The notes under the pieces are model-generated. The model was not told the origin of the DNA. It searched no databases and worked only from the letters and a program-made list of their open reading frames with translations. This document shows positions 1-36,544 of a stretch of 64,000 nt of DNA, piece by piece. The position numbers were made by a program, and so were the translations under genes. The stretch covers positions 1-64,000 of the IMG/VR virus record IMGVR_UViG_3300025133_000036; one strand, written 5' to 3'. The number at the start of each line of letters is the position of its first letter. Positions within the stretch are counted from its first letter, which is position 1. This stretch comes from a virus.

Positions 1-99
1 ACGACTTATATATTAGCATCATATGGTAACATAGCTGAATATAAAAAATTACAAAAAGCTTTTAAATTAGTTGATAAATGGTACAAGGATTGGAAATGA
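1..99 (+). CDS. C-terminal end of an unidentified protein (truncated by window start)
   Basis: Frame 1 is open from the first base and reads 32 residues to a TGA at 97-99, ending in a Lys/Trp/Tyr-rich helix-like stretch (KLVDKWYKDWK). Its stop overlaps the ATG of the next gene at 96 as ATGA, the coupling used by several other gene pairs here, which supports it as a real coding end. Too little remains to identify it. By position it may be another member of the small leader-bearing family that follows. Confidence 0.6.
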   Translation, partial: TTYILASYGNIAEYKKLQKAFKLVDKWYKDWK

Positions 100-182
100 T
101 TAAATTAAAAGATTTATTAAAAGAAAGTATTGGCGGTATAGTTTCTATCGGCGCATTAAACAACCCTTTTCCTATCCGGAAA
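96..182 (+). repeat. Direct repeat, leader block copy 1
   Basis: An 87-base block covering the first 29 codons of the gene at 96. It matches 392-478 with one difference (T at 117, C at 413, a silent leucine change). The sequences diverge immediately after the shared TCCGGAAA. Confidence 0.9.
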
Positions 183-377
183 CAAATAAAAGAGTATCGT
201 ATACAAAAAGCTGAAGATATTAAAGCTGACCCTAGAATTTGGAAAACTTTAAAATATGAATTACAAAAACAATTTTATGAATTAGAAAAGATTGGTCCAG
301 ATTTTGGTGTATTTCAAAGTGCTCAAGGTACTCACAAGATTTTAAAACAAATTAAAAAGTTAATACACAAACTATAA
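96..377 (+). CDS. Small putative internal head protein with capsid-targeting-like leader (copy A)
   Basis: Encodes 93 residues from the ATG at 96. An in-frame ATG at 78 adds six residues, but 96 is chosen because four other genes start with exactly MIKLK and because the ATGA overlap couples it to the upstream stop. Residues 1-10 are MIKLKDLLKE, ending in L-K-E at residue 10, the (L/I)-x-E pattern cut by T4 gp21-type prohead proteases and the same spacing as the T4 internal-protein leader. A segment SIGGIVSIGALNNPF follows and is shared with the next gene. The rest is a basic, helix-like body with no recognised domain. The internal-virion role is inferred from the leader. Confidence 0.7.
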   Translation: MIKLKDLLKESIGGIVSIGALNNPFPIRKQIKEYRIQKAEDIKADPRIWKTLKYELQKQFYELEKIGPDFGVFQSAQGTHKILKQIKKLIHKL

Positions 378-391
378 GGCGGATAATTAAA

Positions 392-478
392 ATGATTAAA
401 TTAAAAGATTTACTAAAAGAAAGTATTGGCGGTATAGTTTCTATCGGCGCATTAAACAACCCTTTTCCTATCCGGAAA
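392..478 (+). repeat. Direct repeat, leader block copy 2
   Basis: Second copy of the 87-base leader block found at 96-182. Near identity at DNA level, next to complete divergence of the bodies, points to recent duplication or recombination rather than slow paralogue drift. Confidence 0.9.
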
Positions 479-730
479 GAAAAAATCAATGAATATATTG
501 ATTTATCTGATCCAGTAAATGAGGTAAGAGATCACTTGGAAAAATTTTCTAAAGCATTAGATCAAAAAGCCGGCGGTTCATTCGATGGCGATGCAGGCGA
601 ATATCATGGTTTTGAGGGTGGAGATAATAAACTCTATGCAAAGCGACATAAACAATTATCTCATTGGGAAACTAAAGTAAATGCAACTTTGATTCGATTG
701 TTAAAAGATTATGAAAAGGCGTGGAAGTAA
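392..730 (+). CDS. Small putative internal head protein with capsid-targeting-like leader (copy B)
   Basis: Encodes 112 residues. The first 29 residues are identical to those of the upstream gene, including the predicted cleavage point after E10 (MIKLKDLLKE). From residue 30 the body is unrelated: acidic first, then a glycine-rich stretch with aromatic residues (around 66-80), then a C-terminal helix ending EKAWK. The pair therefore looks like one leader joined to two different cargo bodies. Its TAA (728-730) overlaps the next ATG at 730. If cut after E10 the mature protein would be 102 residues. The body's function is unknown. Confidence 0.7.
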   Translation: MIKLKDLLKESIGGIVSIGALNNPFPIRKEKINEYIDLSDPVNEVRDHLEKFSKALDQKAGGSFDGDAGEYHGFEGGDNKLYAKRHKQLSHWETKVNATLIRLLKDYEKAWK

Positions 731-966
731 TGATTAAATTGAAAAAGTTAATAACTGAACGGGTTGAAGGTGGAAACATTCATGCAATGACACAAAAGGA
801 ACTTGACAGAGGAATTAAAAAAGCTATGAAAATAATCATGACAGGAAAAGTTCCATCATTTGATATCATCAATGGCCACTCCGGTGAAATGATTTCTTGG
901 AAAGAAGGACAAGAGTATCACTGGCAACCGAGCGGTATCATGTATGCCCGTAGAGAGCTAAAGTAA
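730..966 (+). CDS. Small putative internal head protein with MIKLK leader
   Basis: Encodes 78 residues from the ATG at 730, which overlaps the previous stop as TAATG. A GTG at 721 would add three residues but breaks the leader pattern. The leader is MIKLKKLITE, with I-T-E at residues 8-10. The body has a basic helix (residues 24-38) followed by a short region with Trp and His. No family is recognised. The next gene starts immediately after its TAA, so the set is translated as a tightly packed operon. Confidence 0.7.
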   Translation: MIKLKKLITERVEGGNIHAMTQKELDRGIKKAMKIIMTGKVPSFDIINGHSGEMISWKEGQEYHWQPSGIMYARRELK

Positions 967-1365
967 ATGATTAAACTGAAAGCTTTATTATTTGAACAGC
1001 TAACTGACAATGATATTAAAGTTGGTGATGCTTATCATGTAACATCCCATGTTGGGCTTATGGTTCAATTCGTATATGAAAAGGAACGAAGAGGTGGAGC
1101 AATCATGATTGAATATCAATTTAAGCCACAGTATGGAGACCCAGGATTTATGTCAGTTGGTACAGGCCCTGCTGAAAGTGTTGATAACTGGGGAAGGGCT
1201 AAAAAGATTAAGGTTACTTCTAAGATGAAAAAGATAATGATAAAAACTTTAAAAGATGCTATTGATAGTAAATACAATGGCTCTGAAGAAACAGATGTTT
1301 TATTAAGAAATAAAGGCATGGTTGGCTCACTATACGCAGTATTAAGTTGGGCTAAGAGGCTTTAG
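967..1365 (+). CDS. Small putative internal head protein with MIKLK leader
   Basis: Encodes 132 residues and starts one base after the previous stop. The leader is MIKLKALLFE, with L-F-E at residues 8-10. The body looks like a compact beta-rich domain (DAYHVTSHVGLMVQFVY, then GGAIMIEYQFKPQYG) followed by a basic helix with several Lys-Met steps (residues 75-90) and a C-terminal Trp helix. No catalytic motif is recognised. With its neighbours it makes a run of four leader-bearing genes just upstream of the holin. Packaging with the DNA is inferred. Confidence 0.7.
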   Translation: MIKLKALLFEQLTDNDIKVGDAYHVTSHVGLMVQFVYEKERRGGAIMIEYQFKPQYGDPGFMSVGTGPAESVDNWGRAKKIKVTSKMKKIMIKTLKDAIDSKYNGSEETDVLLRNKGMVGSLYAVLSWAKRL

Positions 1366-1863: not shown

Positions 1864-3720
1864 ATGGGATACTATAGCGAAGCAATCGTTAAACACATTG
1901 TAACACACCTTGCAAGTGAAGGCAAAGAAGAATACCAAAAATTCTTTAGAACGGCTTTAGATAAATTCGGTGTAGATTCACCCGCAGAATTAGACTCTGA
2001 CAAGAAAAGGGAATTTTTCAATTATATTGATAGCGGTTATACGGCTAAAAATGAATCGACTTCTAGTTATGAAAAGTCACTTAAAAAAATAGCACATGAT
2101 AAGACGCTAAAAATGCTTTCTAAAAAAGATAAGGAAACACTTGTTAAAATAGCTAAACTGATGAAAAGCGCTAACGAGCAAAAAATTGATATAACTCCAA
2201 CTTTAGAATCTAATAAGTTTGGAAAATGGTTAGAAGATTGTGCTAGTGGGTATCAAGATGAAGACGAAGAGACCGAAGTAGATACAGAAGGTTTAGATCC
2301 AGTTGGTAAAGAAGATGATGACGTTGATAATGATGGAGATAGTGATGAAAGTGATGAGTATTTGAAAAATCGTAGAGATGCTGTGACGAAAGCTATTGGC
2401 GAAGCATCTGGAGATTATGGATGGGATCAACAATTTGATGGATCAATGTCTCCACCGAACATTAGACAAGATATACACAGTGCACTATTAAAGGCGGATA
2501 TTAAAGTTAAAAAAATTGTACAAATGAAGCAAGATAAAATTGCTAAAGATGAAATCGGTTTTTTCTTTCATGTAAAAACTGCTAGTGGACGAACAGATGT
2601 AATGCCTTTTTATATTGATACAAAAGGTAAAGTTAATTTAGGTGTATCGTCTAAAGATTGGATTATTGGAAGTGTTAAAGGTAGTTCTTCAAAAATGATA
2701 AAAAATTTAATAGATTATAAAAAGAACGATTTGGCGAATGAAGGACTTGATGAAAACGGTATTCTTTATAAAGCCGGTGTAAAAAAATATGGCAAAGAAG
2801 GAATGGCTAAAATATTAAGTGCTGCTGGTAAGGATTTAGGACACGAAGAAATAGGTAAAATTAAGGACAAATATGAAAAAGATGAATCCGTAAGTGAGGG
2901 AAGACTAAGTTCTAAAATTAAAAAAGCAATAATGATAGCAATACAGATGAGTGGTAATATGACTGGTGCAGTTGATAAGATTGAAAAACTTGCCAAAGGA
3001 TTGTCTGATGATGATAAAGTTGCAGCTGCTTTAAAAATGGCAAATGAAGCTAAAATTAGTGTAGAGCCTAATTGGGAAGGAATGTGGAGATTTTTTAAGC
3101 ACATGGCAAAAACTAATGTAGGTGCTTGGTATAAAATACAGCGTGCTATGGGAAATGAGTGGACCAAACTGGACAAAATGGCATCTAAAAAAGGCTGGGT
3201 AGCAGAATCTGTGAATGAGGGTAAAAAGATTAAAGTTGGTCAACGGTTTAATGCAAATGGTATAACTTGGGAAGTTATTAAAGTTGGTCCTACATCATCT
3301 AGAGCAAAAGCAATTACAAAAAATAAACAATTTGATCCTCATAAAATTTTTGATAATAAAATTATTATAAAACAAATAGAATCCGTAAATGAAGACTCTG
3401 AGTTTACAATGAAAATTGATTCTTATCAAAATGCACTGAAAGCATTAGACAAATATGTTGATGTGTTAAAAAAATTAGGATTAAAGAAAAAATCTATGGC
3501 GGCTTTAAAACTATTAAAAAATTTACAAAAGATAATGTTTCAAAAAGAAGTAACAGAAGTATCTAGTCCATTAGTACATAAGTTAACACATGCTATTGGA
3601 GATGTAGAAGATCTACTTGATGCTACTGAATCGGAAGAAGCTAATGATGCATTTAGTAAACTCAAGCCTTCTAAAAAAGCATTGATAGCGTCTCTTAAAC
3701 TCTTAAACAAGGTGAAATAA
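1864..3720 (+). CDS. Modular 618-residue protein, putative virion/core protein with ESVxE linkers
   Basis: Lys/Glu-rich protein with no recognised enzyme motif. The N-terminal 60 residues form a helical unit containing SPAELDSDKKREFFNYIDSG. A strongly acidic linker follows (about 132-160, Asp/Glu runs). Next come a mixed segment (about 180-290), a helical unit with GKEGMAKILSAAGKDLG, and three units separated by near-identical linkers ESVSEG (base 2884), ESVNEG (3204) and ESVNED (3379). The C-terminal 100 residues are a Leu/Lys helical bundle. The organisation suggests small domains on flexible connectors, perhaps processed by the prohead protease (an I-G-E site precedes ASGDYGW). Virion location is inferred. 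Confidence 0.55.
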   Translation: MGYYSEAIVKHIVTHLASEGKEEYQKFFRTALDKFGVDSPAELDSDKKREFFNYIDSGYTAKNESTSSYEKSLKKIAHDKTLKMLSKKDKETLVKIAKLMKSANEQKIDITPTLESNKFGKWLEDCASGYQDEDEETEVDTEGLDPVGKEDDDVDNDGDSDESDEYLKNRRDAVTKAIGEASGDYGWDQQFDGSMSPPNIRQDIHSALLKADIKVKKIVQMKQDKIAKDEIGFFFHVKTASGRTDVMPFYIDTKGKVNLGVSSKDWIIGSVKGSSSKMIKNLIDYKKNDLANEGLDENGILYKAGVKKYGKEGMAKILSAAGKDLGHEEIGKIKDKYEKDESVSEGRLSSKIKKAIMIAIQMSGNMTGAVDKIEKLAKGLSDDDKVAAALKMANEAKISVEPNWEGMWRFFKHMAKTNVGAWYKIQRAMGNEWTKLDKMASKKGWVAESVNEGKKIKVGQRFNANGITWEVIKVGPTSSRAKAITKNKQFDPHKIFDNKIIIKQIESVNEDSEFTMKIDSYQNALKALDKYVDVLKKLGLKKKSMAALKLLKNLQKIMFQKEVTEVSSPLVHKLTHAIGDVEDLLDATESEEANDAFSKLKPSKKALIASLKLLNKVK

Positions 3721-10073: not shown

Positions 10074-13000
10074 ATGGCCGTAAAACAAAAATCAGTAAAA
10101 ATTCAAAATTTAAACCAGTTCAATGCTTTCATTGAAGAATCTGGGGCCGTTTCGGAGTATTTCAATATAACCGATGTACCAGATGAATTACCTTTAGGTA
10201 AATCTTCACTTTTATTGATGGGTTCTCAATATCTTAAAGAGAACGTCACATTAAAATTAGAACTTATTGATAATATCGGAAATCCGGTTTATTTGGAACC
10301 TGTATACAATTATAAAGAAACAGGTGGGATAAGAGTCGGTCTTGAGATATATAATTCTGTTGCAGCAGGAGCTGCAGAACTTGTAATATTAGGTGAAATA
10401 GATCCAGCCAAAGTTGACTTTGATATTCCATCAGAATTTCAAGGGGTATACAATGTAAAATATTCGCGTCCTCTTACGATTAATAAGGCTATTCCAAATA
10501 CTAGGCCTATAAAATTTTATAAACGACCCATACCCATAATAAGTGAAATAATCAAAGGTCAAATAACGCCTTCATCAACGACAACGGGTTCAAATGTACA
10601 AACAACGGGAACAATTGTTGGACTACCTGCTACCAATACTGAAGGTAATTCTTTTCAAATAGATTCGGCTCATTATGGCGAAATTCCAACATATACTGAT
10701 AATCAATACGGTTATTCGCCGATAGGCAATACACAAGAATATGTTTCTCCAAATGATACTTCTTATTTGTTTTCATTTCCTGATGGATCTACTACTGAAT
10801 TTTCATCTTCAATGGTTGGAGGAACATTAACTATATCGTCGCCTCAAGCGACCCCAACATTTGTCACAACAAGTCAAATGATTGTTCCGTCTTATTCCGC
10901 ACGAATAAGTAAGGTCGTCAACAAAAAGACAATAAGAGTTCAAAAACCCTTTGGATTATATGATTCAGGTTCTGGGCAATATTTAATTAGTCCAATCGAG
11001 GCTAGCAGCTACCAGATAAATTGGCCAAAACCGTCTGAATTTAATACAAGCAGTGTAAATTTTAAATCGTTTGCAAATGTCGTATTGTCTAATGTTCGAA
11101 CATTTTCTGGAGACGTTTATCGAATAGCGGCATACGTTAAAAATAACGGACCGTTTGGAAACTGGAATAAAGTTATTGATACACCTGTTGAAGCTCCAGA
11201 GCTCTTACAGGATACTCTTTCCCTTACAGGTACTGCTCGAATTGGGTATTTTGCTTCTGATACAATAGTTTCCAAATATTGGAATGAAACAGGAGGTGGA
11301 TCCGCTAATCCATTCGCTACATCAACCGTTTTTCAAACGTATTCAACCGATGAATATTTAGTTGATTCAGTTTTCATTTCTTCATCCGCCGCAAATATGC
11401 TTGATGGCGATACAGATCATCATGTTTTAGCGTTAAAACCGCAATATTCTATGAGTTTTGCAAAGAACACTTCTTATACGCTGACATTTGATACAATATG
11501 CGACAACAGAGGCGGTATTGGTTCGAAACCAAAGATGACCTTCTTTATGTCCGGATCTGCTTTTACTCTCGCTGAAAATACTACAAATCAAAATGCAGGT
11601 TTTGGACGAGCGATAGCACAAATAAAATTTCCTGATTCAGTTAACTCTTTAAGAGGGTTAGAACAAACTCGACACGAAGCTACTTTTGAGCCGGATTTTG
11701 ATGGAACTGCTATACTTCAAATAAAAACCACTCATGGACATTGGCACCTTGCAAATTTATCATTAAGAGCTGCAACTGATACAAATTTTTCACCGGATAT
11801 AATCCAGCTAACAGCTCCTGTTCCTGCACTCCAAACTCGACCGGATAATCTAGATTTCGCATTTGAATTCTATAATAGTAACAATGAAAAATCTGAAACA
11901 GTAATAACAACCTTACCTGATAATCCGGATGGCGTAGTTTTCCAAGGTGAAAATATGAATATCCTTGGAAATGACAATACAATTGAAGGATCTATTTTTA
12001 TTGGAGGAGAAACCACCGGAAGTGGTATTCAAATGGGAGGAATCTCATCGACATTACCTGAAACAGGAGGTGACGGTGCAACTGGATCTGGATTTATCAG
12101 ATCTGTACAATATAGAGGATTTAAAAGTTCAAGTTTAAATGATGAACATACCGGTTGGATGATTTATAGTGGTTCAGTATTACCGGATTCAGGAGATAAT
12201 TATGCAGGTGTCGGATTAGAGCTTGCCGGCAAATCGGGAAGTTTAAGATTTAGCACAATACCTTCTAGATTTGAAGTTGTAGCCGATGCATTTTTCGTAG
12301 GAAACACAAATACACAATTCATCTCTGGTTCAGGCGGAATAATTGAAATAAGTTCATCTGCATTCCATTTGTCTTCAAGCGGCGATGTAGTTGTCTCTGG
12401 ATCGATTACGGCCACATCAGGCGATATTGGTAATTGGAAAATAGTCGATGGAATGTTAAGCGGAAGTAACGCAACATTAGATGCAAACGGTTCTGCACTT
12501 TATAAATCGGATCAAGGCCCTGACACAAACCCTAACGATGGATATTACATTGATTTTACACCTGGAGGATATTATGTACGATTCGGTTCCGACTTTGCAG
12601 TATCATCTTCAGGTACATTAATTGCAAGTGGTGCAATAATTGAAGGGGTTCTTACGTCTTCTGCTGGGTATATCGGTAATTGGACTATAGGTTCGGATTC
12701 AATTCATAAATCAACAGGTGGAAAATACTCCGGCCTTTCGTCTATTGGTAATACTCGTTTCTTTGCGGGCGCGGACTCGTTATCAACAAGTGGAAGTGCT
12801 CCATTTAATGTAAAATCTTCTGGCGACGTAAGTGCATCTAATATTTTACTTGGAAATAAGTCGTCTGCAAATTATTTAGAGTACTTGAATGGAGCATTGA
12901 CCGTCCAAGGAACTATCACAGCAAATGCAATACGTACACCTGCTATAATTGGTGGATCGGTATCTACTGAACAGAATGCATCTGCGTCTATAAATGCACA

Positions 13001-16000
13001 AGGATTCGCTTCATTTAAGTCTGCATCTATAGCCGGCTTTGAAATCGCTCCTTCAACTATTACGTCAACCGACGATTCACTGATATTAAAATCAGGTGGA
13101 GAAATGACTGGATCTTCAATATTACTTGGAAATAAAGGAGCTGGCCAATTTCTTCAATATAAAGGAAGCACATTAACAGTACAAGGTGATATTACCGCAA
13201 ATAATATTAGAACTCCTGCCACAATTGGAGGTAGTCCGTCTACAGATAGCAATGCTTCATCATCTATTAATACACAAGGATTCGCAAGTTTTAAATCAGC
13301 GTCCATTGGCGGATTCGAAGTTTCTGCTACACAAATAAATTCTACAAACGATAATTTAATATTAAAATCAAATGGACAAATCACAGCTTCAGCAGCTAGA
13401 ATAGTTGGTAGTGATATTGATATAGATGTTGAGAATTTTGAATTAGACACTACTGGACTTGAATTATCTTCAACAGAAGCTTCAATGTCATTGGGAACTG
13501 GTAATGAGATTGTTATAAGAGGTAATAGTAATAGCCCATATATCAGTATACAACCAAGTTTAGCTCTCCCAGATAAAATTTATGGTGACACAGGAATAAT
13601 GCTTGCAGTTGCGGCCGGCTCAACACCATTATTTTCAGCCGTAGGAACCGGTGGACATATAAAATTTAACGGCACCAGTCTTGATATCAGTACAGATACT
13701 GCAGTTATAAGTGGAAGTTCAATTACATTGGAAACACCTAAATTCTTTTTAGGAAGTAAGGGTACACAATTTGTAAGTGGTTCAGGCGGAAGTATTGAAA
13801 TAAGTTCATCTGCTTTTCATTTAACGCGACAAGGTAATGTAACAGCATCACAGTTTCTATTAGAAGGCGGTAAAATTTCTGGATCAAATGTTGAAATAAT
13901 TGTACCGCAATTTAAATTAGACACAACACGATTTGACGTCGATTCAGAGGTAGGAACATTATCATTAGGTGCCGGTGTTAATATGACACAAGGATCAGGA
14001 GTTTTCTTTTCATCGTCAGGTGATTTTAAAATGGGCGATCCAAACGGAAATATAAAATTTAGTGAAGGTTCTTTTTCAATCACAGGATCTGACATTAATA
14101 TTGATGTTACACAATTAAACATTTCCGCATCAGGATTTACATTATCAAGTCCTCAGGCTTCAATGTCACTTGGAAACAATAAAGAATTATTATTACACGC
14201 AACTGGTGGAACTGGCGGAGTACCAATATTAAAAATGGATGGTGGTGAAATATCCTCATCTAATTTCTTTTTATCTACTACTGGTGAAATAACAGGTTCA
14301 GCTGGAAAAATTGGTGGATGGACAATTGGAAATTCCACATTGTCTGGAACGAATATAACATTAGATTCTTCAGGAACTATTCAAACTGCAGATTACTCTA
14401 GTGGAGTTAAAGGATGGAAAATTGATCAATCTGGCGAAGCTGAATTTGAAAACGCAACAATAAGAGGAACATTAGCAACTGTTACTTTTGAAAAAGAAAG
14501 TATTAATGCGGTAGGCGGACAATTATGGGTTGCAAATTCAACTGCAATATCCGGAAGTACAGTAGGTGTATCTGCAGCCACAATGAGCGTAGTAAATGCA
14601 TCAGGCTTTGTTGCGAATGAATATTTAATAATTAAAAAGGAAACAGGATCAGGCTTTAATCAGGAAGTTGTAAAAGTTGTAAGTTCTTCTATTACAGGAA
14701 ATGGAACGAATGACTTTGCTGGAAACATTATGGTAACAAGAGCCGTAAGTGGTTCAGCAACAACTTATGAAGAAGGACAAGTAATAGTTTCAACAGGTGT
14801 TAGCGAAAGCGGTTACATAAGAATAAACGCAAATCCTTCCGATGCTGCGACCCCTTATATCGATATTGTTGAAAGAACAGGAAGTGCATACCCAGATTTT
14901 GAATTAAAAGCTCGTCTAGGCGATTTAAGTGGAATCAGTTCTGCAAAAGTTGGTACAGATCCAGGTTTTGGTTTATTTAGTGAAAATGTATTTTTAACTG
15001 GTAAAATAACCGCAACCTCTGGTGAGATTGGTGGATACGCAATTACATCAAACGCCATATCAAGTTCTAATGATAAATTAATACTAAAATCAAACGGTCA
15101 GATTACTGGTTCAAACGTATTATTTACTGATGGTAAAATTGCAGGTTGGAATATTAGTTCAACAAATTTAACAAGTCCAGGTGCTGGAATTAGACTTAAT
15201 GGAAATGGAGATAATGCAGAAATATCCGTAAACACTCATGTTTTTGGAAGTGAAGGAATCCAACTGGGTTATAATAGTGGAAATCCAAGATTTTACGCTG
15301 GTGATGGTGCCCAAAACTTTTTAAGATATGATACGAGTAATGGCGTATCAGTTAAAACAACTCGATTTGAATTAGATACTACGAATTTAGTCCTTTCATC
15401 AACAGAATCAAGTATGAGCCTTGGTGAAGGAAAAATTAAATTAATTGGCCAAACTGTTCCAGTAATAAAAGTTGCAGGAGGAGAAATATCTGCTTCTAAT
15501 TTCTTTGTATCAAAAGATGGAAACCTTACAGCTAGCAATGCTCAGTTCCAAGGTGAACTAACTTCATCTGCAGCATTAATTGGCGGATGGACAGTTGATT
15601 CGAATTCTATTCAAAAAGGTCAAACGATATTAAGTGCTTCTGATGACCCAGGATTGTATATTCAAGATGCTTTTACTAATAATATGGTTACCGTTGCAAG
15701 TAGCAGCTTGCATGTTATTGGTTCAGATCCAGACGAAATGGAAAATGATAGTTTTGAAGTTGATCCATTAAGTAGTTTTTCTTCAGCTGGCTACCATGTT
15801 GGAACAACCGCTTCACCATTGTCTGTTGTTAGTTGGTCTATTGCTTCGACAGGTCCCGTTTCACACTCAATAACAAAAAGGTCAGGTGCACCATTTACAG
15901 ATTTTAATGAAGCAGTACTTGGCGATTTTACGCTTGATATTGTCCATCCAGGTACTTTAGCACCTGTTGCAGGATTAAGTAGAAGTTTAGCCGTCGCAAG

Positions 16001-19000
16001 CCAATCTTATTTAGCCGGCAACACATATGAAGTCTCGCAAATTGTAAGTGCAAGTTCCGCAGCAGGAACTGTTTGGAAAGCCGGCAATGTCGTTTCATTT
16101 GCTGGAGTTGGAAAATTTTCACATTCTCTTTCAGGAAAAGGATATGATAGAGGTTTACAATCCCAAAAATATAAAGTTGAATATTGGAATGGCTCAAGTT
16201 GGACAATGTTTATTCCAAAATCCGGATCAAGAAGTGACAGAGGTGGATATGCTCAATATAGACTTGGATCTCGATATGGTTCAATTTCTGCAGGAGCAGA
16301 ATTACCCGCAAACTCTTCAAAATTAAAAGTAACATTGTCAGGATCAATAAATCCGGATACCTCATATAAAAAGAAACGTGCGATTTATCAAGGACATGTC
16401 GTTGATCCAATGTCAGATGTTCTCCCGGGCAAAACTGCCGTTAAAGAAGTTGAAGAAGATATTAAGTTAAATGATGAATCATCCGCAAAATATCCATATA
16501 CCGAAATAACTTTTGATAATTTTAGATTAAGACAGTCTCAACCAAGAGTACAGTTGACACCTGAAGGATTTTTATTATACGCATCGGATTCTTCTTATCT
16601 TAAAATGACACCGGAAGGTATTGATTTTAGAGGCGGTCAAGGTTTTTCACAAACATCAACAATGTTAGCCGGAGATAGTAATTCAGACAATATAGACGTT
16701 TATGGTTCTTTTGCTGGACCATCGCTTCAAGCGTATGAAGCTGATACTGCCGATGTAGGTGCATCCGCTTTCCAAGGTAACGTTGGTGAATACGCAATGG
16801 GTAATCATCGACACAAATTAAATTTTAGTACAATCAATGACGTATTAAGTGGTGCAACAATAACAAATGGAATATGGAATTCAAATTTTGGTGCTATACC
16901 AGCAGCACTTATTTCTGGATCGTGGCAATCACAAGATTTTGCAAATCTAACTCCTGCTAAAATCTCTGGATCATGGCAATCGCAAGACTTTGCAAATCTA
17001 ACTCCTGCCAAAATCTCTGGATCATGGCAATCGCAAGACTTTGCAAATCTAACTCCTGCTAAAATCTCTGGATCATGGCAATCGCAAGACTTTGCAAATC
17101 TAACTCCTGCCAAAATCTCTGGATCTTGGGCCTCTTCTGGTGCGATTGCTAATTCTTATTTGGCAAATGACGGTATAACAATAGCAGGTAATGATATATC
17201 ACTTGGTGGCACAATAACATCTATAACAATTTTAAATGGAACAGGAGTAATTTCACAATCTGCGCAATTACCCGATGGATTAGTTTCATCTTCTGCATTC
17301 TCTTCACCAAGTCAAGGTACAATACGAGCAACACTAAATGGTTCAACGACTGATGTCGATTCAGGCCTTCAATCCGGCGATTCTCCACAGTTTACCGACT
17401 TAACATTAACTGGAAATTTAACTGTACAGGGAACTCAAACAATAATTGATTCAACCACATTAAATATTGGTGATAATATAATCGAACTTAATGCTGGAAC
17501 AAGTGACGGTGGATTATACATAAAAGAAACTCAAGGTGGAGCAGCAACAGGATCTTTATTATGGGATGTTAGTGCAAATAGATGGATCGGTGGATTAAAA
17601 GATAGTGAAGTTACTATACCGACAATTACATCTACTGATACTCTTACAAACAAAACAATTAATGCATCAAATAATACTCTTTCAAATATTCCCAACAGCG
17701 CATTAACAAATACTTCTGTTAGCTATGGTGGAATTTCAATTGCACTTGGCAGTTCTGATGCAACACCCGCGTTTGATTTATCTGATGCAACAAGTTTACC
17801 TATAGTTGCTGGAACAACTGGAACTTTAAGTGTTGCAAGAGGTGGTATAGGGGCTACATCATTAACTGATCTGATTACTTTAGGGTCACATACGACTGGA
17901 AATTACATGACGGATGTTTCAGTTGGAACTGGTTTAGATGTTTCACATACTCCTGCTGAAGGTTCGACGGCAACAGTAAGTTTAGATCTAACTGAAGTCG
18001 GTTTTGGTGGAGGAGCAAACAGAATTATTACTGACGATGCAGATGGAACAGTATCAACTGAAGCAAATCTTACATTCAGCAGTCCATTGTTAACGATTGG
18101 AGGCGGTTCAGCTGCGTCCGTAACATCGCAACTTAGATTGGCATACGGCGCAACCGATTATCACGACATAAAAACCATTTATAATGGCTCAACTAGTTCA
18201 GCAAATAAAATAATTTTTGCTTTAGAAAATTCAACAGCTGCCGCTACTGCCGAAGTCTTAACATTAAGAGGTGATGGTACCATTGGAATTAATCAAACAG
18301 CTCCATCGTATGGATTAGATGTTACTGGAACAGGAAGATTTACCGCGAATGTAGATTTCGGATCCGGAATCGATATAACAGGAGATATTACAGTCACCGG
18401 CACAGTTGATGGCAGAGATGTTGCAACTGATGGAACAAAATTAGACGGTATAGAATCAAGTGCTACTGCAGATCAGACAGCAAGCGAAATACTAACTGCA
18501 ATAAAAACTGTTGATGGAACTTCAAGCGGATTAGATGCAGATTTATTAGATGGACAAGAGGGAACTTACTACTTAGATTTTACAAATATCACGGTTACAT
18601 CAGGAGAAGTTTCAAATGCGATGTTAGCTAACAGTTCCGTTAGTCTTGGTGGCATTTCGGTTTCACTCGGAAGCAGTGATGCAACACCAGCATTTGATTT
18701 ATCTGATGCAACAAGCTTACCTTTGTCTACCGGAACCACCGGAACACTTGCCGTAGGACGAGGAGGTACTGGAACAACAACATTAACTGATGGTGGAATT
18801 TTACTTGGCAGTGGAACAGGGGCTATAACTGCAATGAGTGCTCTTGCTGATGGTCAAATGATTGTCGGTGATGGATCAACAGATCCTGTCGCAGAAAGTG
18901 GAGCAACATTAAGAACTTCAATCGGAGTTGGTCTAACGGATTCTCCTCAATTTACGAATTTAACATTAACTGGAAATTTAACAGTAGAAGGATCTCAAAC

Positions 19001-22000
19001 AATAATAGATTCGACTACATTGAATATTGGTGACAGAATAATCGAGTTAAATGCTGCAAAAGCGGCTGGAGATGGTGGACTTTACGTAAGAGATCAATCA
19101 ACCGCAGAAACCGGGTCATTATTATGGGATGTCGATCAAAATAGATGGATTGGAGGTTTAAAAGATTCGGAAGTTAATTTAGTAACAATAGATTCTTCAG
19201 ATACACTAACAAATAAAACTTTAACAACCCCAACAATTTCAGCAACCGGTTGGACAAATGCAAATCATACGCACGCAGGAAGCACAACGGGCGGTCAACT
19301 TGCAGCTACAGCTATTAGTGATTTTGATACTGAAGTAGCAAATAATACGGCGGTTGCGGCCAACACTCTTAAAGAAACAAACGTTACTACAAACCTTTCT
19401 GTAAGCAGAGACGGTACAAAAATAGACATAGTATCTTCTGATGGAACTAATGCAGTTCTACCACTAGCTGATACGGATAATTGGGGCGTAATGTCTGATG
19501 AGATGTTTGATAAATTAGACGGCATAGAAACTAGCGCAGACGTAACTGATGCAACAAATGTAGAAGCTGCTGGCGCGTTAATGGATAGTGAATTAACAAG
19601 TATCGCGGATGTCAAAGCACTAAACCAATCAGTAGTTAGTGGCGCAACACCTACATTTACAACTACTAATTTTACAGACGCATCAAACAAAAGATTAATG
19701 ACAGATGCTCAAGAAACTTTATTAGATTCTGTTGAAACTAATGCAGACGTAACTGATGCAACAAATGTAGAAGCTGCTGGCGCGTTAATGGATAGTGAAG
19801 TTGATGCGGACATTAAGACGCTCTCACTTCCTGCAAGTACAACAATCTCCACATTTGGTGCATCACTTATAGATGATGCAGCTGCAACAAATGCAAGAAC
19901 AACTTTAGGATTAATAATCGGCACAGATGTTCAAGCTTTTGACGATCAATTAGCTTCAGTTGCAGGTTGGACTGCCGCACAAACAACTACTATAGGAAAC
20001 ATAGGTACTATTACTACTGCAGCTGATAAGATGATTTACACGACCGCCGCAGATACATTTACAGAAACTGCAATTACATCCTTTGGTAGAAGCATATTAG
20101 ACGATGCCGATGAAGCAGCATTTAAAGCTACCGTTAATCTTGAAATAGGAACTGACGTTCAAGCACAGGATGCTGGATTAGCATCCATCTCAGGATTAAC
20201 CACTGCAGCTGATAAAATGATTTACACTACTGCCGCTGACACTTATGCTGTGACTGGTTTAACATCTTTTGGTAGAAGTATATTAGATGATGCTGATGAG
20301 GCAGCATTTAAAGCTACCGTCAATCTTGAAATAGGAACTGATGTTCAAGCCCAAGATGCGGGATTAGCATCCATTGCAGGATTAACCACTGCCGCAGATA
20401 AGATGGTTTACACTACTGCCGCTGACACTTATGCTGTGACCGGTTTAACATCTTTTGGTAGAAGTATATTGGATGATGCCAATGAGGCAACATTTAAAGC
20501 TACCGTCAATCTTGAGATAGGTACTGACGTTCAAGCATATCATGCCACTTTAGATACAGTTTCTGCAGGTACTTATGCTGGTGATGATAGTATAGTAACT
20601 GTTGGTACAATTGCAACCGGTGAATGGAATGCAAGCGACATAGCACTTGGAACATACACAAGTGGAAATTATGTTGGAACATTATCTGTTGGGGCTGGTA
20701 TGGCCGCGGTTAATGCCGATGGTGAAGGCTCGTCTAAGACGATAGCAGTAGATGGTGTATTAGAAGATTTAGATACATTGGGTGCAGCAGCATCTGACGG
20801 ACAATTTATAGTAGCTACGGGTGCAGGTACTTTTGGATACGAAAGTACTACGGTAGCTAGAACAAGTCTTGGAGTAGGAACAGGAGACAGTCCATCATTC
20901 GCTGGATTAACTAGCACCGATGACATCATATTAGATGGCTCCGGCGATTCTATTTACAATACATTTGTTACAGGAATGTTCGGTACAGGCTGGTCAATTG
21001 ACTATGGCGCAAATGGATCATCTCTAGAAATAGATAATATTGTTGTTCGTAATACGTTACGGACTCACATATTCCAGAAAGATACTGTGAAGGCTTCAAA
21101 TGGAGCTCTTTACATTAGTGATTCTGGAGTCATTAATAGTTTTACTGGAACTACAGGTACCGGTACAGTTTCGTTTAAAGATGATAAGTCGGCAACGTTT
21201 GTAAGTGGATCTACGTTATGGTATAAAGATGCTCATCCAGATACTGGTACTATTGCTAGTGTTAAGTTTGGAATTACCGATAATGGTACAGCTGATACCC
21301 CAGTGGCTGATGCAACACAGTATGCTGTTATTATTGATAAGTACGTCGGAGGCACCGGTGGAGATAATGATAGTCTTGCTGATTTGGTTGTAGGTGGAAC
21401 TGCAGTTAGAATCTCAGGAGGAAGCTTACTATTAGACGCATCTTCAACGGCCGCTCCATTTATGGATGTTATTGATGATGCAGGCAATACGAGAGTAAGA
21501 GTTGGTCAGGTAAAACAATCAGCTGATTATGATAAGTACGGAATACTGGGCATGGATGGTAGCGGTAATAGGGTATTCGAAATTTCAGAACAAGTAAACG
21601 AAATAGCTGGATGGTCATTAACTACCGATGCTATTTCTAAGTCTAACATATCTTTAAACGCTACAAATCCAAGTTTAAGAGTAACGGATGGAACAAGAGA
21701 ACGAGTTAGAGTAGGAGATTTAAACGGTGTAGGTGGTTATACTACTGCAAAGTACGGAGTAATAGGATTTGATGGGACTGGGGTACTCGCAGCAGATGCA
21801 ACCTTCGAACTTTCAAATGAACGAAATATGATTGCCGGATGGGATTTAATTCCAGGTAATATACAGAGTGATAATTCCGGTGGTAGTGTAAGATTAAGTT
21901 CAACTGCACAAGCATTAACTATATGGACTGGCAGTATCAATGAAGCTCAACCTAAATTAGTATTAGGTAAATTGCCATTACATGATGGAACTGTAGACAA

Positions 22001-25000
22001 TCCATACGGATTTGCTGTATTTAGTGGAAGTGGAACGGTTTCAGGAAGTGAAGCAAGCGCTTCAGTATTGATTACTGCGAATAAAGCAAGATTGGCTGGA
22101 TGGGAATTGGGACCAGGTCAATTGACAAGTGGAACAGTCGCAACAATAGACGGCAACCAGGCTAAGATAGCACTGGGAACAAACGCGACAACTCATACTG
22201 GAATGAGTCCATCTGCAAGTTTATTTTTCGTAAGTGCATCAGCAGACCCAATCTTTTTTGTTGGAGAAAACTTTAGTTATATAGGTGATGTATTAACTGC
22301 TGGTGGTTGGACAATAGGGTCAGGTGTAATAGAAAGTCTTGATACTGATGGCGGAATAAAAATAGATGCCAGCAACAAACAAATAAATATCTACACAGGT
22401 TCTGCAGCTACTACTACTCCTAGAATTGTAATTGGAGATGTCAATGGTAGTGATTCTTTTGGAATAAAAGGTGTAAAGTCAAACGGTAATACAGTTTTTG
22501 AAATATCTGAAACTCAAAATATAATAGCAGGCTGGACTATAAATGCAGGGTCAATATCAAAGAATAATGTCAAGTTAGATTCAACAGCAGCCGCAGAAGG
22601 ATTATATGTTAAAAAGTCAGGTTTTTCTGATGATACTGCTGGTGGGTTTTTAGGTCTTGATAGCGGTGTTGCAAAATTTAATGTAGGAAATGCTTCTAAA
22701 TTTATAAAATTTGATGGAAATCATTTAACAGTTGAAGCTGGTAATTTCTCATTAGACTCAAGCGGTAATGTAACTGCAGACGGATCAAGTCACCAGTTTG
22801 GTGGAACAATAACAGCAAATGTTATAAATGCTACAGGATCAGGAGTAATTGGTGGTTTTGGAATTACAGACTCTGAGATCTCCTCAAGTGGTGCTACTGG
22901 AAACACGGGATTACGATTAAAGTCATCAGGACAAATAACTGCTTCAGCTGCTAAGATCACAGGTGATATTACTGCAACAGGAGGTACTATTGGTGGATTT
23001 ACAATAGGCACAAACTTAACTGAAGGAAGCAAAGCTGCATATCTTGATGCCAATTCCGGCATTTTTATCGGAGCAGATGGTATCGGATTAGGTCCTTCAT
23101 CGACAGGATTTTATGTATCAGACGCTGGAGTTTTAGTTGCAAATTCTGCAACAATCGCAGGAACTGTTACCGCTACAAATTTAATCGCGACTAATACTGG
23201 TAGTATTGCTGGATGGGATTTGAGAGCTGGATCTATCGAAGCTGAAGACACTAGTGTTGGTGGACGGGTTCGAAAAACGTCTATTTCTTCTTCTAGCGAT
23301 CTAAGTGGCTTAGGAGTTCAAGAACGAGAAACTACTACGAACGGAAATAAACGTTGGCAGCAAAGAGTTAAAGTTGGATCATTTGCATTATCAAACCCAG
23401 GAAGTGTACCTGCTCAATTAGTCCAAAATAAGGATTTTGGACTCTCAATCCCAGGGTGGGATGAATCATTTAAAACTGCTATCTCTGGAATCGGTGGCCA
23501 AAAATATCTAGGAGCCGGATCTTATGGCGGAGCCACAAATAAGGACACTTATAATGCGACACACAGTATGGCATATGTTGGTCCTGGATCTTCCAATGAT
23601 CAACAACTTATTGATTCATCCGGATGGGATCGGTTTGTAACTTATGTAGATGCGAGTCAAGCCCCAGACATGACTACCGGCAACGGGTATTCTCCACACT
23701 GGTCTGGTTCATTAACTTCTTCAATAATAGATGATGGAGGATTAATTCATAACGAACACCAAGTTATGAGTACAGGTGGTGGTAAAGTATTATTTGTAGA
23801 ACCTGGAGTTGTTGTAATGTCATCTGCAAACTCCTTCAGCCCCAATTGGGGTACCGAGGACGCCGGTACTGCTGGGATGGTAGTCAACTGGTCACTTGAA
23901 CAAGATATAGGACACGTTTCTGCTGCAGAAGATTCACTTATCGACTTTAAAGCCGGCCTACAAGCTCCTCCAACTAATATAAATATCAAACGATTATTGC
24001 ATTTATATAGAATGAAAAGTGAAACAGGTTGTGCCAATAGTGTCATTGATTATACAACACAACTCCGCGTAATGTGTGATAGAGACGGCGGAACTTCATA
24101 TGATGAAACGCTTATCTCCACCACCGCTATTACTTTGTTCAAAGGCACTCCAGATCCTATAGATGGAGCTAAAACTTATTGGACACCTAATAAGGTACAA
24201 TCTGAAAAACAAGGGGTCTTATCTGGAAGCCTTTCTGGTGCGACACTCCAAGTGCAACTTTCGTGCATGGTTATCTTCGGCGGAGATTTTAAATCTAAAG
24301 ACATGTATGATGCAGTAGATGCTACTACGACTGGCATTTCAGCAAATGAACAGGGAGCTCACAAAGTACTTTACAATGATGGCAACATACCTAATGTCAA
24401 CGCAAAAGGTGTATGGCTGAGACTTCCAGGAATTATTTTCGACGAATGTTATCTTACAATTGGCGGAACGAGATTACTTGAAGCGTCTTCTGACGGTCTC
24501 CAAATGCAAACTACAGGAACTGAACGTTTAAGATTTGATGATTCCGGATTAGATTTAAAAACAAAAAAACCTTTTGAAGCATTAACAATGTTACCAAATC
24601 AAATTCTGTTTAATGTTTCTAAGTCTTTAGTCGGTGCTGATGGAACCGCAACCGGCTCTTCATATATTAACCCGACCATAGGCTTTAATTATCCTGCAGT
24701 TAATACGGGTACAGGATCAATAGAAGATTTATATATTCGTGGAATGAGACCATACGCTTCTACGTCCGCATATTCATGGCAATCCCCTGAACACGGGTAT
24801 TCAGCAGCGCCATGGAGTATGACTGGTACCGCCGGAGCAATTCATATTGCTGCAGCGGATGGTGCTAGTGCTGAATGGGCTGGGTCTAAAAACAGTGGAG
24901 ACGGTGGAAGCATATACTTATCCCCTGGAAAACCTGGTGCGGTCGACACCGGGACAATGGGTAACAGTGGAAGTATTTATTTACAAGGCGATGTAAATGC

Positions 25001-31385: not shown

Positions 31386-33164
31386 ATGGCACAACAAGAC
31401 ACATTTTTTGATAGAATCCAACGATTATTTTCTACTAATGTAATAGTAAGAAATATCGGCGGAAAAAAACTAAAAGTAATTGATACCGATGAAATTCAAG
31501 CCGGATCAAAAACGTTACAGGATAGATACACAAAGCTTTTTGCTACGAATTATTCGGGTGGTGGCTATCATGGTTATTCGGGTGAATTGGCAAAAGCCCA
31601 ACGATTAGCGTTATTTAGGGATTATGAAGCAATGGATGATGATTCCATATTGTCTTCGGCTCTAGATGTATACGCAGATGAGTCAACAATGAAATCTGAA
31701 TACGGCAACGTTTTAGAAATAAAATCAAATAATAATCAGATAAAAGAAATCCTTCATAATTTGTTTTTTGACATTTTAAACGTAGAGTTTAATTTATGGC
31801 CATGGATTAGAAATATGTGCAAGTACGGTGACTTTTTTCTACATTTAGAGATAGAAGAAAAGTTTGGGGTAATAAATGTCATGCCAATGTCTGCATATGA
31901 TGTTTCTAGGATTGAAAACTGGAACCCAGAAAACCCGCAAGAAGTAAAATTCATAGTAGATGCAACAGATCCACGAAATTCTCCGGCAAATTCAAATAGA
32001 ACTGAATATCAAAACTATGAAGTAGCACATTTCAGACTACTTTCCGATTCTAATTATGCTCCATACGGTAAAGCAATGGTTGAAGGTGCTAGAAGAACTT
32101 GGAAACAATTAAGTCTTATGGAAGATGCTATGTTAATACATCGTATCATGAGAGCACCAGAAAAAAGAATTTTTAAAGTCGATATTGGTAATTTACCTCC
32201 AAATGAAGTAGATACATACATGAAAAGAATCATCGATAAGATGAAAAAAGCCCCAGTCGTCGATGAAAATACAGGCGAATATAATCTAAAATACAATATG
32301 CAAAACCTTACAGAAGATTTTTATCTACCAGTTCGAGGAGGCGATTCTGGAACATCAATTGAATCTCTTCCAGGATTAACATATGAAGCTGTTGAAGATA
32401 TTGAGTATCTACGAAACAGAATGCTTGCTTCATTAAAGATTCCTAAAGCATTTTTAGGGTATGAAGAAAATGTTGGATCAAAAGCTACTTTAGCCGCCGA
32501 AGATGTTAGATTTGCCCGCACAATTGAAAGAATTCAGCGAATTACAATTAGTGAATTAACAAAAATTGCCGTTGCGCACTTATATGCTCAAGGTTTTACT
32601 GATTCCGGTTTAGTTGATTTTGAATTAGAATTAACTAATCCATCTACAATATATGAACAAGAACGACTTGAACTATGGGATTCAAAACAACGTATTGCTA
32701 AAGATATGGCCGATGCAAATTTGGTTTCAAAACAGTGGCTTTATGATAACATCTTTAATTTCAGTGCTGAAGAAGTTTCTAAAGTTGAAGGTGAAATATT
32801 AGACGATAAAAAGACATTATTTAGATTAGGTTCTATAGAAAATGAGGGAAATGATCCAGCGAAGCCGGCGGAAGAAGGGCAAATGCAACAGCCGGAATCA
32901 AGTCCAAGAAACAATGAAGAAACTCACGAAAAAAGCAATAGGGACACAATGGACCGTGATACCTATGACGTTAAAGATGTCCTCGGTAAGCATGATTATA
33001 CTCACAGTATTGGACGTGACCCGTCTCCTGTTAAACATAATTATAGGAAGAGTCCATTAGCATTATCGCACATAGATCGTATGGCAAAGAGCTTTGGAAA
33101 TAAGGAAACCAAAATTATTCAAGAGATCGATAATCTAGACGACACACTAAAAGAAACCAAGTAA
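31386..33164 (+). CDS. Portal protein, T4 gp20-like
   Basis: Encodes 592 residues and starts one base after the terminase stop. Features of the family include an early RIQRLFSTNVIVRNIGGK, DDDSILSSALDVYADES (about 79-95), an HRIMRAPEKRIFKVDIG segment (about 250-266), the FYLPVRGG tunnel-loop region (about 311-318) and LKIPKAFLGYEE (about 350-361). A polar Glu/Pro/Asn-rich tail (from about 485) is likely flexible. It forms the twelve-fold ring through which DNA enters and leaves. In T4 the tail sheath and tube genes separate gp17 from gp20; here they do not. Confidence 0.93.
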   Translation: MAQQDTFFDRIQRLFSTNVIVRNIGGKKLKVIDTDEIQAGSKTLQDRYTKLFATNYSGGGYHGYSGELAKAQRLALFRDYEAMDDDSILSSALDVYADESTMKSEYGNVLEIKSNNNQIKEILHNLFFDILNVEFNLWPWIRNMCKYGDFFLHLEIEEKFGVINVMPMSAYDVSRIENWNPENPQEVKFIVDATDPRNSPANSNRTEYQNYEVAHFRLLSDSNYAPYGKAMVEGARRTWKQLSLMEDAMLIHRIMRAPEKRIFKVDIGNLPPNEVDTYMKRIIDKMKKAPVVDENTGEYNLKYNMQNLTEDFYLPVRGGDSGTSIESLPGLTYEAVEDIEYLRNRMLASLKIPKAFLGYEENVGSKATLAAEDVRFARTIERIQRITISELTKIAVAHLYAQGFTDSGLVDFELELTNPSTIYEQERLELWDSKQRIAKDMADANLVSKQWLYDNIFNFSAEEVSKVEGEILDDKKTLFRLGSIENEGNDPAKPAEEGQMQQPESSPRNNEETHEKSNRDTMDRDTYDVKDVLGKHDYTHSIGRDPSPVKHNYRKSPLALSHIDRMAKSFGNKETKIIQEIDNLDDTLKETK

Positions 33165-33226: not shown

Positions 33227-34069
33227 ATGAAACATTCAAAGTATAAAAACACAGGGCTTCTCTTTGAGTTGCTAGTAAGACAAATAACCGCAGACATCTT
33301 AAATAGCAATAAGACTGGAGTAGCCGAAACAATTTTGAAAACTAGTTTCAATAAAAACTCTGAATTATTTAAAGAGAATAAATATTTTAATGTGTTGATT
33401 GAAAACAAAGTTAAAACACCAGATCATGCTAAAGAGCTAATCGAAAATACTATTAAAGCATATACTAGGAACATTAATACTAGCAAGCTTAATAAAGAAA
33501 AATATTTGCTTATAAAACAAATGAAAGAAAATTTTCATTTAAATGATTTTTTAAAGTCAAAGGTTGCGAATTATAAATTACTAGCATCTATACACAATGT
33601 TTTATCTGAAAATATTGATAACCCAGTTTCATATACAAAATCAAAAACGACATTAATCGAACACATGACAGCTGTTGACAAAGAAGTGGATTCTTCAACA
33701 GTCGCAACATTAAGAAAAGAAAATAAAGATTTGCGAATTTTAGCATACAGAGTACTGGTTGAAAGGTTCAATAAGAAATATGATACATTATTGAGCAGTC
33801 AAAAAGACGTCTTGAGAGAATACATTAATAACATTAGTAATACAAATGGTTTACAAGAATATTTAACATCAAATTTTAATATGGTTTTACGTGAATTAAA
33901 AACGTCATTATCTAAAATTGAAAATAAAGTTATCAAGATAAAATTAAAAGAATGTATTACACTTATACGTGAAACAAAACCTTCAAATCGCTCGTATTCA
34001 AAAGATATTCTCAAGTTAATGAGATTCCATCAGCTTCTAGAAGATGTAAGAAATGCAATTAAAGCTTAA
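33227..34069 (+). CDS. Unidentified helical protein in the prohead core position
   Basis: Encodes 280 residues, almost wholly helical by composition, Lys/Leu/Asn-rich, with a short conserved-looking start (KNTGLLFELLVRQITADIL). A central region (about 139-185) carries TLIEHMTAVDKEV and a long basic helix. No enzyme motif was found. It lies between portal and prohead protease, where T4 has the small core proteins gp67 and gp68, so a role in prohead assembly is plausible; at 280 residues it is longer than either. It overlaps the next gene by 17 bases. Confidence 0.55.
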   Translation: MKHSKYKNTGLLFELLVRQITADILNSNKTGVAETILKTSFNKNSELFKENKYFNVLIENKVKTPDHAKELIENTIKAYTRNINTSKLNKEKYLLIKQMKENFHLNDFLKSKVANYKLLASIHNVLSENIDNPVSYTKSKTTLIEHMTAVDKEVDSSTVATLRKENKDLRILAYRVLVERFNKKYDTLLSSQKDVLREYINNISNTNGLQEYLTSNFNMVLRELKTSLSKIENKVIKIKLKECITLIRETKPSNRSYSKDILKLMRFHQLLEDVRNAIKA

Positions 34070-34457
34070 AGAACTTATACGCAATATGATTCGTAAAGAA
34101 TTGGCAGAAATGTCAACATCTGGAGCTGCGGCCCCATATGCAACGCCAAATGCCTTTACTGATAAGGAAAAAGATAAAGATGAGTTAAAACTTTCTGACG
34201 GTATGAGCGTTGTTGAAGAAGGTTACTATCATTGGAGAAACGATGATAGCTTATCTACAAAGCAAAAAATTGCTAAGTCTATGACCGAAATCCGGAATAA
34301 AATTTCTGAAATAGAAAAAATTGTTAAGCATAATGTAAAGCTTAAAAATGAAACAAAGTTTAAATCAGATCAATATTACAAAAGAACAAAGGGCGCTCTT
34401 CATAAAATCTCTGAAAAATTAATGAGATTATCAACAAGAATTAAGGATTTAGTATAA
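34053..34457 (+). CDS. Small protein with basic N-terminal helix, putative core/internal protein
   Basis: Encodes 134 residues. The N-terminus MQLKLKELIRNMIRKELAE is a variant of the short basic-hydrophobic leaders seen in this window and ends in L-A-E, a gp21-type cleavage motif, just before MSTSGAAAPYATPNAF. The C-terminal half is a Lys-rich helix pair. It starts inside the end of the preceding gene and ends one base into the protease gene. If cut after E19 the mature protein would start at the Ser/Ala/Pro-rich segment. Function unknown. Confidence 0.6.
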   Translation: MQLKLKELIRNMIRKELAEMSTSGAAAPYATPNAFTDKEKDKDELKLSDGMSVVEEGYYHWRNDDSLSTKQKIAKSMTEIRNKISEIEKIVKHNVKLKNETKFKSDQYYKRTKGALHKISEKLMRLSTRIKDLV

Positions 34458-35047
34458 TGGATAAGAGATTAATAGTAGACACAATACCATTTGATGTCAC
34501 ACCAGAAAAAATTAATGAATCAATGAGTTCCAATGGCGGCCGGCTTATTGTTAAGGGTGTATTGCAAAGAGCCGAATCTCAAAATCAGAATGGTCGGGTT
34601 TACCCAAGAGAAATTCTCATGAGAGAAGCCAAAAAATATACTGACGAGTTTATTAAAGAACGTAGAGCTATGGGAGAATTAGATCACCCAGATTCATCAG
34701 TAGTAAATTTACAAAATGTATCTCATAACATATTAGAAATGCATTGGCAAAATAATGATCTTGTTGGAACAGTCGAAGTATTAAGTACCCCAGCCGGAAA
34801 CATTTTAAAAGAATTATTTAAAGGTGGTATTAAATTAGGTATAAGTTCAAGGGGTTTAGGTTCAATTAAAAGTGAATCAAAGGGTGATGAAGTTCAAAGT
34901 GATTTTGAATTAATTGCGTTTGATTTTGTTTCTAATCCTTCTACTCACGGAGCATTTTTAAGCCCTGTGAATGAATCAAAAAATAATGTTCACAATAAGT
35001 GGGCAAAAGTTGAACGAGACATTATAAACATTTTATTAGGAAACTAA
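34457..35047 (+). CDS. Prohead protease, T4 gp21-like serine protease
   Basis: Encodes 196 residues. The herpesvirus-protease-like fold is marked by RVYPREILMREAKKY (about 47-61), the catalytic-His motif GELDHP (73-78, His77) and the Ser motif GISSRGLG (128-135), followed by FVSNPSTHGAF (about 156-168). It cleaves scaffold, capsid and internal proteins, typically after (L/I)-x-E. Candidate sites at that motif occur in gp23 here (after Glu63), in the gp22-like scaffold and in the leaders of the small proteins at 96, 392, 730, 967, 35049 and 36036. Gene order gp21-gp22-gp23 is T4-like but with five small genes and bS21 inserted. Confidence 0.92.
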   Translation: MDKRLIVDTIPFDVTPEKINESMSSNGGRLIVKGVLQRAESQNQNGRVYPREILMREAKKYTDEFIKERRAMGELDHPDSSVVNLQNVSHNILEMHWQNNDLVGTVEVLSTPAGNILKELFKGGIKLGISSRGLGSIKSESKGDEVQSDFELIAFDFVSNPSTHGAFLSPVNESKNNVHNKWAKVERDIINILLGN

Positions 35048-35048
35048 A

Positions 35049-35534
35049 ATGAAATTAAAAGATATATTAGAAGAATCTATAGGTGGAATAGTATTTCCAC
35101 AAGCACTTAATTCCCCATTTAGAGAATCACGTTCAAATTCAAGCTTAGTAAAAGTTGCTAAAGAAGTATTAAAACATAATTCTGAAGCTTCAATAATGGA
35201 AAAAGAAGAACTAGTATCATCAGTAAATAAATTTCAATCTTTAGGTAAAGATATTTATGGACCGAAAAACATTGCTGAAATAGGCCAGCAACTTGTTAAA
35301 ATGGCTGAAGCTTCTCAGCAACATGTTGTTGATGAGACTAAAGATTGGTTCGATGCAGTTACTGTAAAAAGAAACATGACTGAATTAAAAAACCACGCTA
35401 ATAAGTTTAATAAGTTAGCGTCAGAAGCAAAAGCTTTACAAGATAGAATGTCCGCATTATACGAAGATATGGGCATGATATATAATCGCTATTTTGAAAT
35501 ACAAGAAATTAAAGAGATAGAAGATGCTTCTTAA
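35049..35534 (+). CDS. Coiled-coil small protein with capsid-targeting-like leader
   Basis: Encodes 161 residues. The first 24 residues (MKLKDILEESIGGIVFPQAL, then NSPF) are homologous to the leader block of the genes at 96 and 392, 34 kb away, with predicted cleavage after Glu9 (L-E-E). The body is unrelated to theirs: long Ala/Lys/Glu helices, probably a coiled coil, ending EIKEIEDAS. It starts two bases after the protease stop and overlaps the next gene by 11 bases. Internal head protein by inference. Confidence 0.65.
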   Translation: MKLKDILEESIGGIVFPQALNSPFRESRSNSSLVKVAKEVLKHNSEASIMEKEELVSSVNKFQSLGKDIYGPKNIAEIGQQLVKMAEASQQHVVDETKDWFDAVTVKRNMTELKNHANKFNKLASEAKALQDRMSALYEDMGMIYNRYFEIQEIKEIEDAS

Positions 35535-36530: not shown

Positions 36531-36544
36531 ATTTGGACACATCT

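Follow-up and report, generated by a model that had tools for sequence, protein, structure and literature searches.

A ten-residue leader on diverse proteins of aquatic T4-like phages is a candidate capsid-targeting propeptide

Leader genes and a T4-type head module

The window, the whole 64,000-nucleotide stretch of DNA analyzed here, comes from an IMG/VR virus record of 132,165 b (G000) that we also scanned in full. Six window genes, named here by their first position, begin with variants of one short peptide, MIKLKxLLxE, which we call the leader. The original prediction that five of them start with MIKLK and reach L/I-x-E exactly at residues 8–10, and that a sixth does so at residue 9, holds on reading the starts (listed below). 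Two of the leaders lie at internal starts: the ORF enclosing gene 96 has its first ATG at 78, and the ORF enclosing gene 730, whose leader begins at the ATG at 730, opens with GTG at 721. Six leaders among 44 window genes compare with none in 2000 shuffles of the N-terminal residues. The main features of the window are as follows (a slash marks a site).

96–377, + strand: leader gene 1, 93 aa; leader 96–125 (MIKLKDLLKE), second module 126–194 (SIGGIV..NPF..IKE33), then body
392–730, + strand: leader gene 2, 112 aa; leader 392–421 (MIKLKDLLKE), second module 422–493 ending INE34, then body
730–966, + strand: leader gene 3, 78 aa; MIKLKKLITE, body GNIHA..FDIING
967–1365, + strand: leader gene 4, 132 aa; MIKLKALLFE
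1864–3720, + strand: 618-aa ORF adjoining the leader cluster; internal ESVSE/G, ESVNE/G and ESVNE/D
31386–33164, + strand: T4-type portal protein (gp20); PF07230, E=1.1e-71
34053–34457, + strand: gene of the head module; related start and predicted site MQLKLKELIRNMIRKELAE/MSTSG, found in relatives too
34457–35047, + strand: prohead protease of gp21 type (Peptidase_S77), proposed to carry out the processing; PF03420, E=6.2e-28
35049–35534, + strand: leader gene 5, 161 aa; MKLKDILEE; head-core candidate from a family that directly follows gp21 in nearly all relatives
36036–36530, + strand: leader gene 6, 164 aa; MIKLKSLLIE; between gp21 and the gp22-like scaffold gene
36533–36904, + strand: gene with a third recurring N-terminal module (NQKGHISNHHPANAF); relatives of its body have leader-type starts
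37231–38259, + strand: gp22-like scaffold gene with an acidic product, assigned from its position and relatives, with no PHROGs match
38270–39889, + strand: gp23-like major capsid protein; a relative in another record (G010) matches Gp23 PF07068

The head module of the record is of T4 type, running in the order terminase (29810), portal (31386), 33227, 34053, gp21 (34457), 35049, 35524, 36036, 36533, 36913, gp22-like (37231) and gp23-like (38270). The Peptidase_S77 gene thus sits between the portal and the scaffold and capsid genes, as expected for gp21, and immediately upstream of leader gene 35049. The gp23-like protein carries a predicted gp21 site, QLIDE63/ASQ, of the same L/I-x-E class as that of the leader. 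This site falls near the cut position of T4 gp23, whose propeptide is 65 residues long (PMC9026906).

Two large ORFs lie upstream of the head module. One encodes 5310 aa (10074–26006). The other, the 618-aa ORF, includes a DxDNDGDxDxSDxYLxNRR stretch (phrog_4359), and its pieces are separate ORFs in relatives; it is possibly a polyprotein of head-cargo modules.

A sequence element also recurs along the record. ATATTTAT is present at window positions 1833, 10036, 33181, 37123 and 39974 and at record positions 68864 and 71389, just upstream of 1864, the giant ORF at 10074, 33227, the gp22-like gene, 40000, the tail sheath and the tail tube. Leader genes have an excess of ATATTTA in their upstream sequence (23 versus 5.8 expected), TATATTTAT is strand-biased in leader loci (182:51), and the T4 late-promoter motif TATAAATA showed no clear enrichment upstream of leader genes. 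From these patterns, ATATTTAT/ATATTTA is a possible late promoter of the phage group.

The leader genes were originally described as having unrelated bodies. The leader is indeed mobile on unrelated bodies, but genes 96, 392 and 35049 share sequence after it and pass into unrelated bodies only later: genes 96 and 392 match exactly over 29 residues, and 35049 has the SIGGIV..ALN.PF part in common with both. Related bodies occur in other loci. The body of gene 96 is related to bodies in three of them (L164, L401 and L178), that of gene 730 recurs behind a different N-terminus (L409), and that of gene 967 is kept at 68–87% in three relatives, all with the leader. Scanning the whole record yielded one clear addition to the original set, a seventh leader gene outside the window (86968–87369) that reads MIKLKGILME, encodes a Pfam NUDIX domain and sits in a baseplate-like gene run.

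Searches for named relatives returned little. None of the six window bodies had a significant named match in Pfam or PHROGs. Against annotated phages, tblastn of genes 96 and 967 found nothing, and 35049 matched only Microcystis phage Mel-JY01 and an uncultured phage. The Mel-JY01 genome, which is complete, has leader genes at 60276, 60923 and 62733, with leaders that end in LQE, LKE or LNE. Literal leader strings retrieved no paper from the PMC literature. Fold models were weak for genes 967 (pLDDT 60; residues 1–12 below 50) and 392 (pLDDT 50), and the weak gene-967 model had no Foldseek match in the PDB at E<=0.001.

A conserved peptide tag across IMG/VR

A scan of IMG/VR for MIKLKxLLxE gave at least 120 matches, and a complete scan for a codon-permuted control, MIKKLxLxLE, gave 38. 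Among the leader matches listed, 85 of 92 lay at the start of an ORF, compared with 10 of 38 control matches. Fixing only MIKLK and leaving everything past residue 5 free, a second scan recovered all of the leader in 36 of 57 proteins at ORF starts versus 2 of 22 internal matches. The pooled loci hold at least 244 unique leader proteins in at least 126 body families, counts that are not independent events, the leader sequences being related by descent. A short N-terminal leader on unrelated bodies is also a feature of T4-type internal proteins.

The tag ends sharply. Aligned representatives of 126 families reach 90% conservation or more only at M1, I2, K3, L4, K5 and E10. Residue 10 still carries 2.8 bits of information, residue 11 carries 0.27 and residues from 12 onward about 0, a profile partly biased by loci picked with Glu10 in the pattern and for which the MIKLK-only scan provides the unbiased figure. 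Residue 11 is weakly enriched in A/G/S. Taken together, sequence comparison strongly supports a mobile N-terminal unit that is carried on unrelated bodies and ends in a predicted gp21-type site.

Could the repeated start be a feature of the DNA, such as a translation enhancer or a recombination hotspot that spreads genes, and not a protein signal? Genes 96 and 392, identical for 29 residues, attest that recent duplication or recombination occurs. Leader codons, however, vary freely (six Leu codons for L4 and both Glu codons for E10) while the residues do not, which argues that selection acts on the peptide. The variants MKLK- and MAKLK- likewise retain its pattern. We regard a DNA-level explanation as very improbable.

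N-terminal swaps at protease-type sites

One and the same body can follow N-termini of differing length, joined to them at an L/I/V-x-E site. For a GPDEQRPAD-type body, the N-terminus ends in LNE (10 residues), ITE (23), VEE (34) or VSE (51); for an HAD-like body, it ends in RLLQE or EQLIVE (LQE or IVE). The gene-392 body occurs in three architectures, its relatives carrying two other N-terminal cassettes, and always comes after E-x-[IL]-N-E. Across 43–44 groups of bodies, counted in pairs, the joint of swapped N-termini coincided with an aligned [LIVMF]xE at a rate of 0.18–0.22 versus 0.023–0.026 expected from random positions or from positions within the homologous body (p<=0.002), or about 7–10 times over chance; jitter in BLAST starts makes the observed value conservative.

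Such sites revise the predicted mature ends of two window genes. A mature N-terminus at residue 11 had been proposed for genes 96 and 392, but in both a further L/I-x-E site directly precedes the body (IKE33 and INE34). Because of these body-proximal sites, the earlier assignment is probably wrong, and the two proteins would probably mature at residues 34 and 35, respectively.

Three modules of about 20 aa recur between leader and body on unrelated proteins: IGGIV..ALNNPF, WxRKFGEPLPTL and NQKGHISxHHPAxAF. They occur in the window at 96–377, 392–730, 35049–35534 and 36533–36904, as well as in loci L408–L415, and are perhaps extra core-binding peptides. In one contig (L316, 686–3262), three leader genes follow one another in tandem and their bodies are related (LYRG..YYxxP), a pattern that points to cargo having been duplicated locally. 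Neighboring genes in three loci (L408, 2395–2999; L415, 2339–3001; L416, 2781–3863) have a different repeated start that reads MKITKxKLxxIIREE or MKIKKSDIAEMVKQE; it may be a second class of leader that these phages carry.

The leader travels with a gp21-type protease

The S77 protease domain (PF03420) was found in 24 of 40 leader records versus, above cut-off, 1 of 21 records with the permuted control pattern (Fisher p=2e-5); the absence of S77 cannot be judged in the remaining 16 leader records, as most contigs are fragments. The T4 portal is likewise missing from 15 of these 16; in the other one, it sits at the contig edge. The leader pattern itself is present in 40 of 40 leader records, which were selected for it, and in 0 of 21 control records. 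A leader common in phages without gp21 had been named in advance as telling against the prediction; as far as fragmentary records allow, no such pattern was seen.

Two records were considered as counterexamples and set aside. G010 has gp23 and no S77, but it is uninformative: the first position of its contig falls within the leader cluster that precedes the 35049-family gene, at the place where gp21 would lie. The 207-kb G028 is uninformative too, as it is without every head-module gene tested.

Gene order ties leader and protease more closely. In 22 of 23 members of the 35049 family, which bear MKLK or MIKLK leaders, gp21 lies upstream, within 350 b in 20 of them. Gene 35049 had originally been counted among the effector candidates; as a member of a conserved gp21-neighbor family, it is more likely a head-core component. 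Outside one record (G013), 55 of 56 leader genes are on the gp21 strand, a result of little weight given that most genes of these genomes lie on one strand.

These data also bear on whether the leader instead sorts proteins to the tail, the baseplate or an intracellular phage compartment, its Glu10 end being coincidental. In its favor, tail-type lysozymes or M23 peptidases are found among the bodies, and the baseplate-like run includes the NUDIX leader gene. Against this, the conserved stretch ends precisely with the gp21 consensus, swaps of N-termini occur at L/I/V-x-E sites, S77 accompanies the leader, and the gene beside gp21 itself carries one. Sorting to such destinations is unlikely.

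Bodies and their possible roles

Most leader bodies are without annotation, and the set of bodies differs from phage to phage. Pfam matches among them include NUDIX, ART-PolyVal, Zeta toxin/AAA_33 kinases, SprT-like, RimK, Mom, lysozymes and M23. One body (L202) matches ART-PolyVal at E=6e-10, and another (L295) matches 2_5_RNA_ligase2, a 2H phosphoesterase, above cut-off, with Acb1 just under its own. PADLOC gave scattered weak matches only. As injected cargo, the peptidoglycan hydrolases (L311, L175), RimK and Mom are odd. An early-effector role is plausible for only part of the set, as judged from these matches: several bodies fit it, and cell-wall hydrolases, Mom and RimK do not obviously do so.

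Alternatively, the leader could bind the head core or scaffold for assembly only, its bodies being helpers like gp67, gp68 or IPIII that are degraded or retained and not injected. The 35049 family, conserved beside gp21 across relatives, and gene 36036, placed between gp21 and gp22, fit this, and T4 IPIII does influence head assembly (PMC9026906). Yet many bodies are enzymes with no plausible part in assembly (NUDIX, ART-PolyVal, Zeta/AAA_33 kinases, 2H/Acb1-like, SprT), and bodies vary between phages. We hold an assembly-only role to be a real but doubtful option.

A model for capsid targeting and cargo loading

The tag, the modularity, the sharp end at residue 10, the gp21 link and the N-terminus swaps at gp21-type sites can be read directly from the sequences. 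On that evidence, MIKLKxLLxE is very probably a lineage-specific capsid-targeting propeptide of a large group of aquatic T4-like phages that is removed by gp21, a judgment that covers packaging and processing. During head assembly, hydrophobic residues 4, 7 and 8 of the leader would attach proteins with unrelated bodies to the prohead core. The gp21-type protease would then cut after Glu10, or after the second L/I/V-x-E site in proteins with an additional module, and the released body would stay in the head. Many of these bodies would probably reach the host together with the DNA, and injection of at least some is likely. Core binding, cleavage, packaging and injection, like antidefence roles for the bodies, are steps that we infer.

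A more far-reaching model, to which we give about even chances, is combinatorial cargo loading. Here swappable N-terminal cassettes (the leader alone, or the leader with an IGGIV-NPF, KFGEPLPTL or HHPAKAF module) would be joined to swappable bodies at prohead-protease sites, with some products fused as polyproteins. If so, these phages deliver with their genome a large, fast-changing set of enzymes that includes NUDIX, ADP-ribosyltransferase, kinase and 2H phosphoesterase bodies, among others.

Virion-delivered proteins are known in detail for few phages only. The leader offers a way of listing the proteins that these phages may deliver into bacteria: as a readable tag, it provides a candidate head-cargo list for widespread uncultured aquatic T4-like phages that takes in more than 100 protein families, mostly unannotated. 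It also predicts exact mature N-termini, which are testable by mass spectrometry.

Comparison with known systems

The T4 internal proteins are the closest parallel. The capsid-targeting sequence of T4 IPIII is MKTYQEFIAE, and MIKLKxLLxE shares its register (L4, L7, L8, E10) with other residues. In the ten-residue IPIII leader, residues 4 and 7 serve targeting and residues 8 and 10 processing (PMC9026906 sec. 2.6); MIKLKxLLxE likewise ends in L/I-x-E, with Glu10 and hydrophobic residues at 4, 7 and 8, and occurs in phages that encode a gp21-type protease. T4 IPI–IPIII, too, carry a ten-residue N-terminal leader on unrelated bodies, ending in a gp21 motif (PMC9026906). In T-even phages, different bodies are swapped behind one shared leader; at least 10 Ips have been reported, and the three of T4, Ip1–3, all inhibit GmrSD restriction enzymes (PMC12373910). 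The MIKLKxLLxE leader would be a functional analogue of the T4 leader, as its sequence suggests; ten residues are too short to decide descent.

Other phages offer partial likenesses. In the giant phages SPN3US (gp53/gp54) and phiKZ (gp93), diverged inner-head proteins share an N-terminal propeptide ending in x-x-E; these propeptides are cut by the prohead protease and contain extra sites (PMC5694885). Those proteins, however, are paralogues, belong to another family of phages and have A-x-E or S-x-E motifs, whereas MIKLKxLLxE bodies are non-homologous. T4 Alt, a packaged ADP-ribosyltransferase, has a candidate counterpart in the L202 body through its Pfam ART-PolyVal domain match. In the one genome examined of its kind, the gp21-bearing Flavobacterium phage immuto has its own repeated start, FDLKKFLVEN (L-K-x-F-L-x-E), on several genes, with residues that differ from MIKLKxLLxE.

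Unlike the T4 internal proteins, the MIKLKxLLxE proteins are known here from sequence alone. They also occur in a distant aquatic lineage, comprise far more body families (at least 126) and have extra modules with a second site. This suggests that combining a single leader with many exchangeable bodies, as T4 does, is a general strategy and that other phages have a more elaborate form of it.
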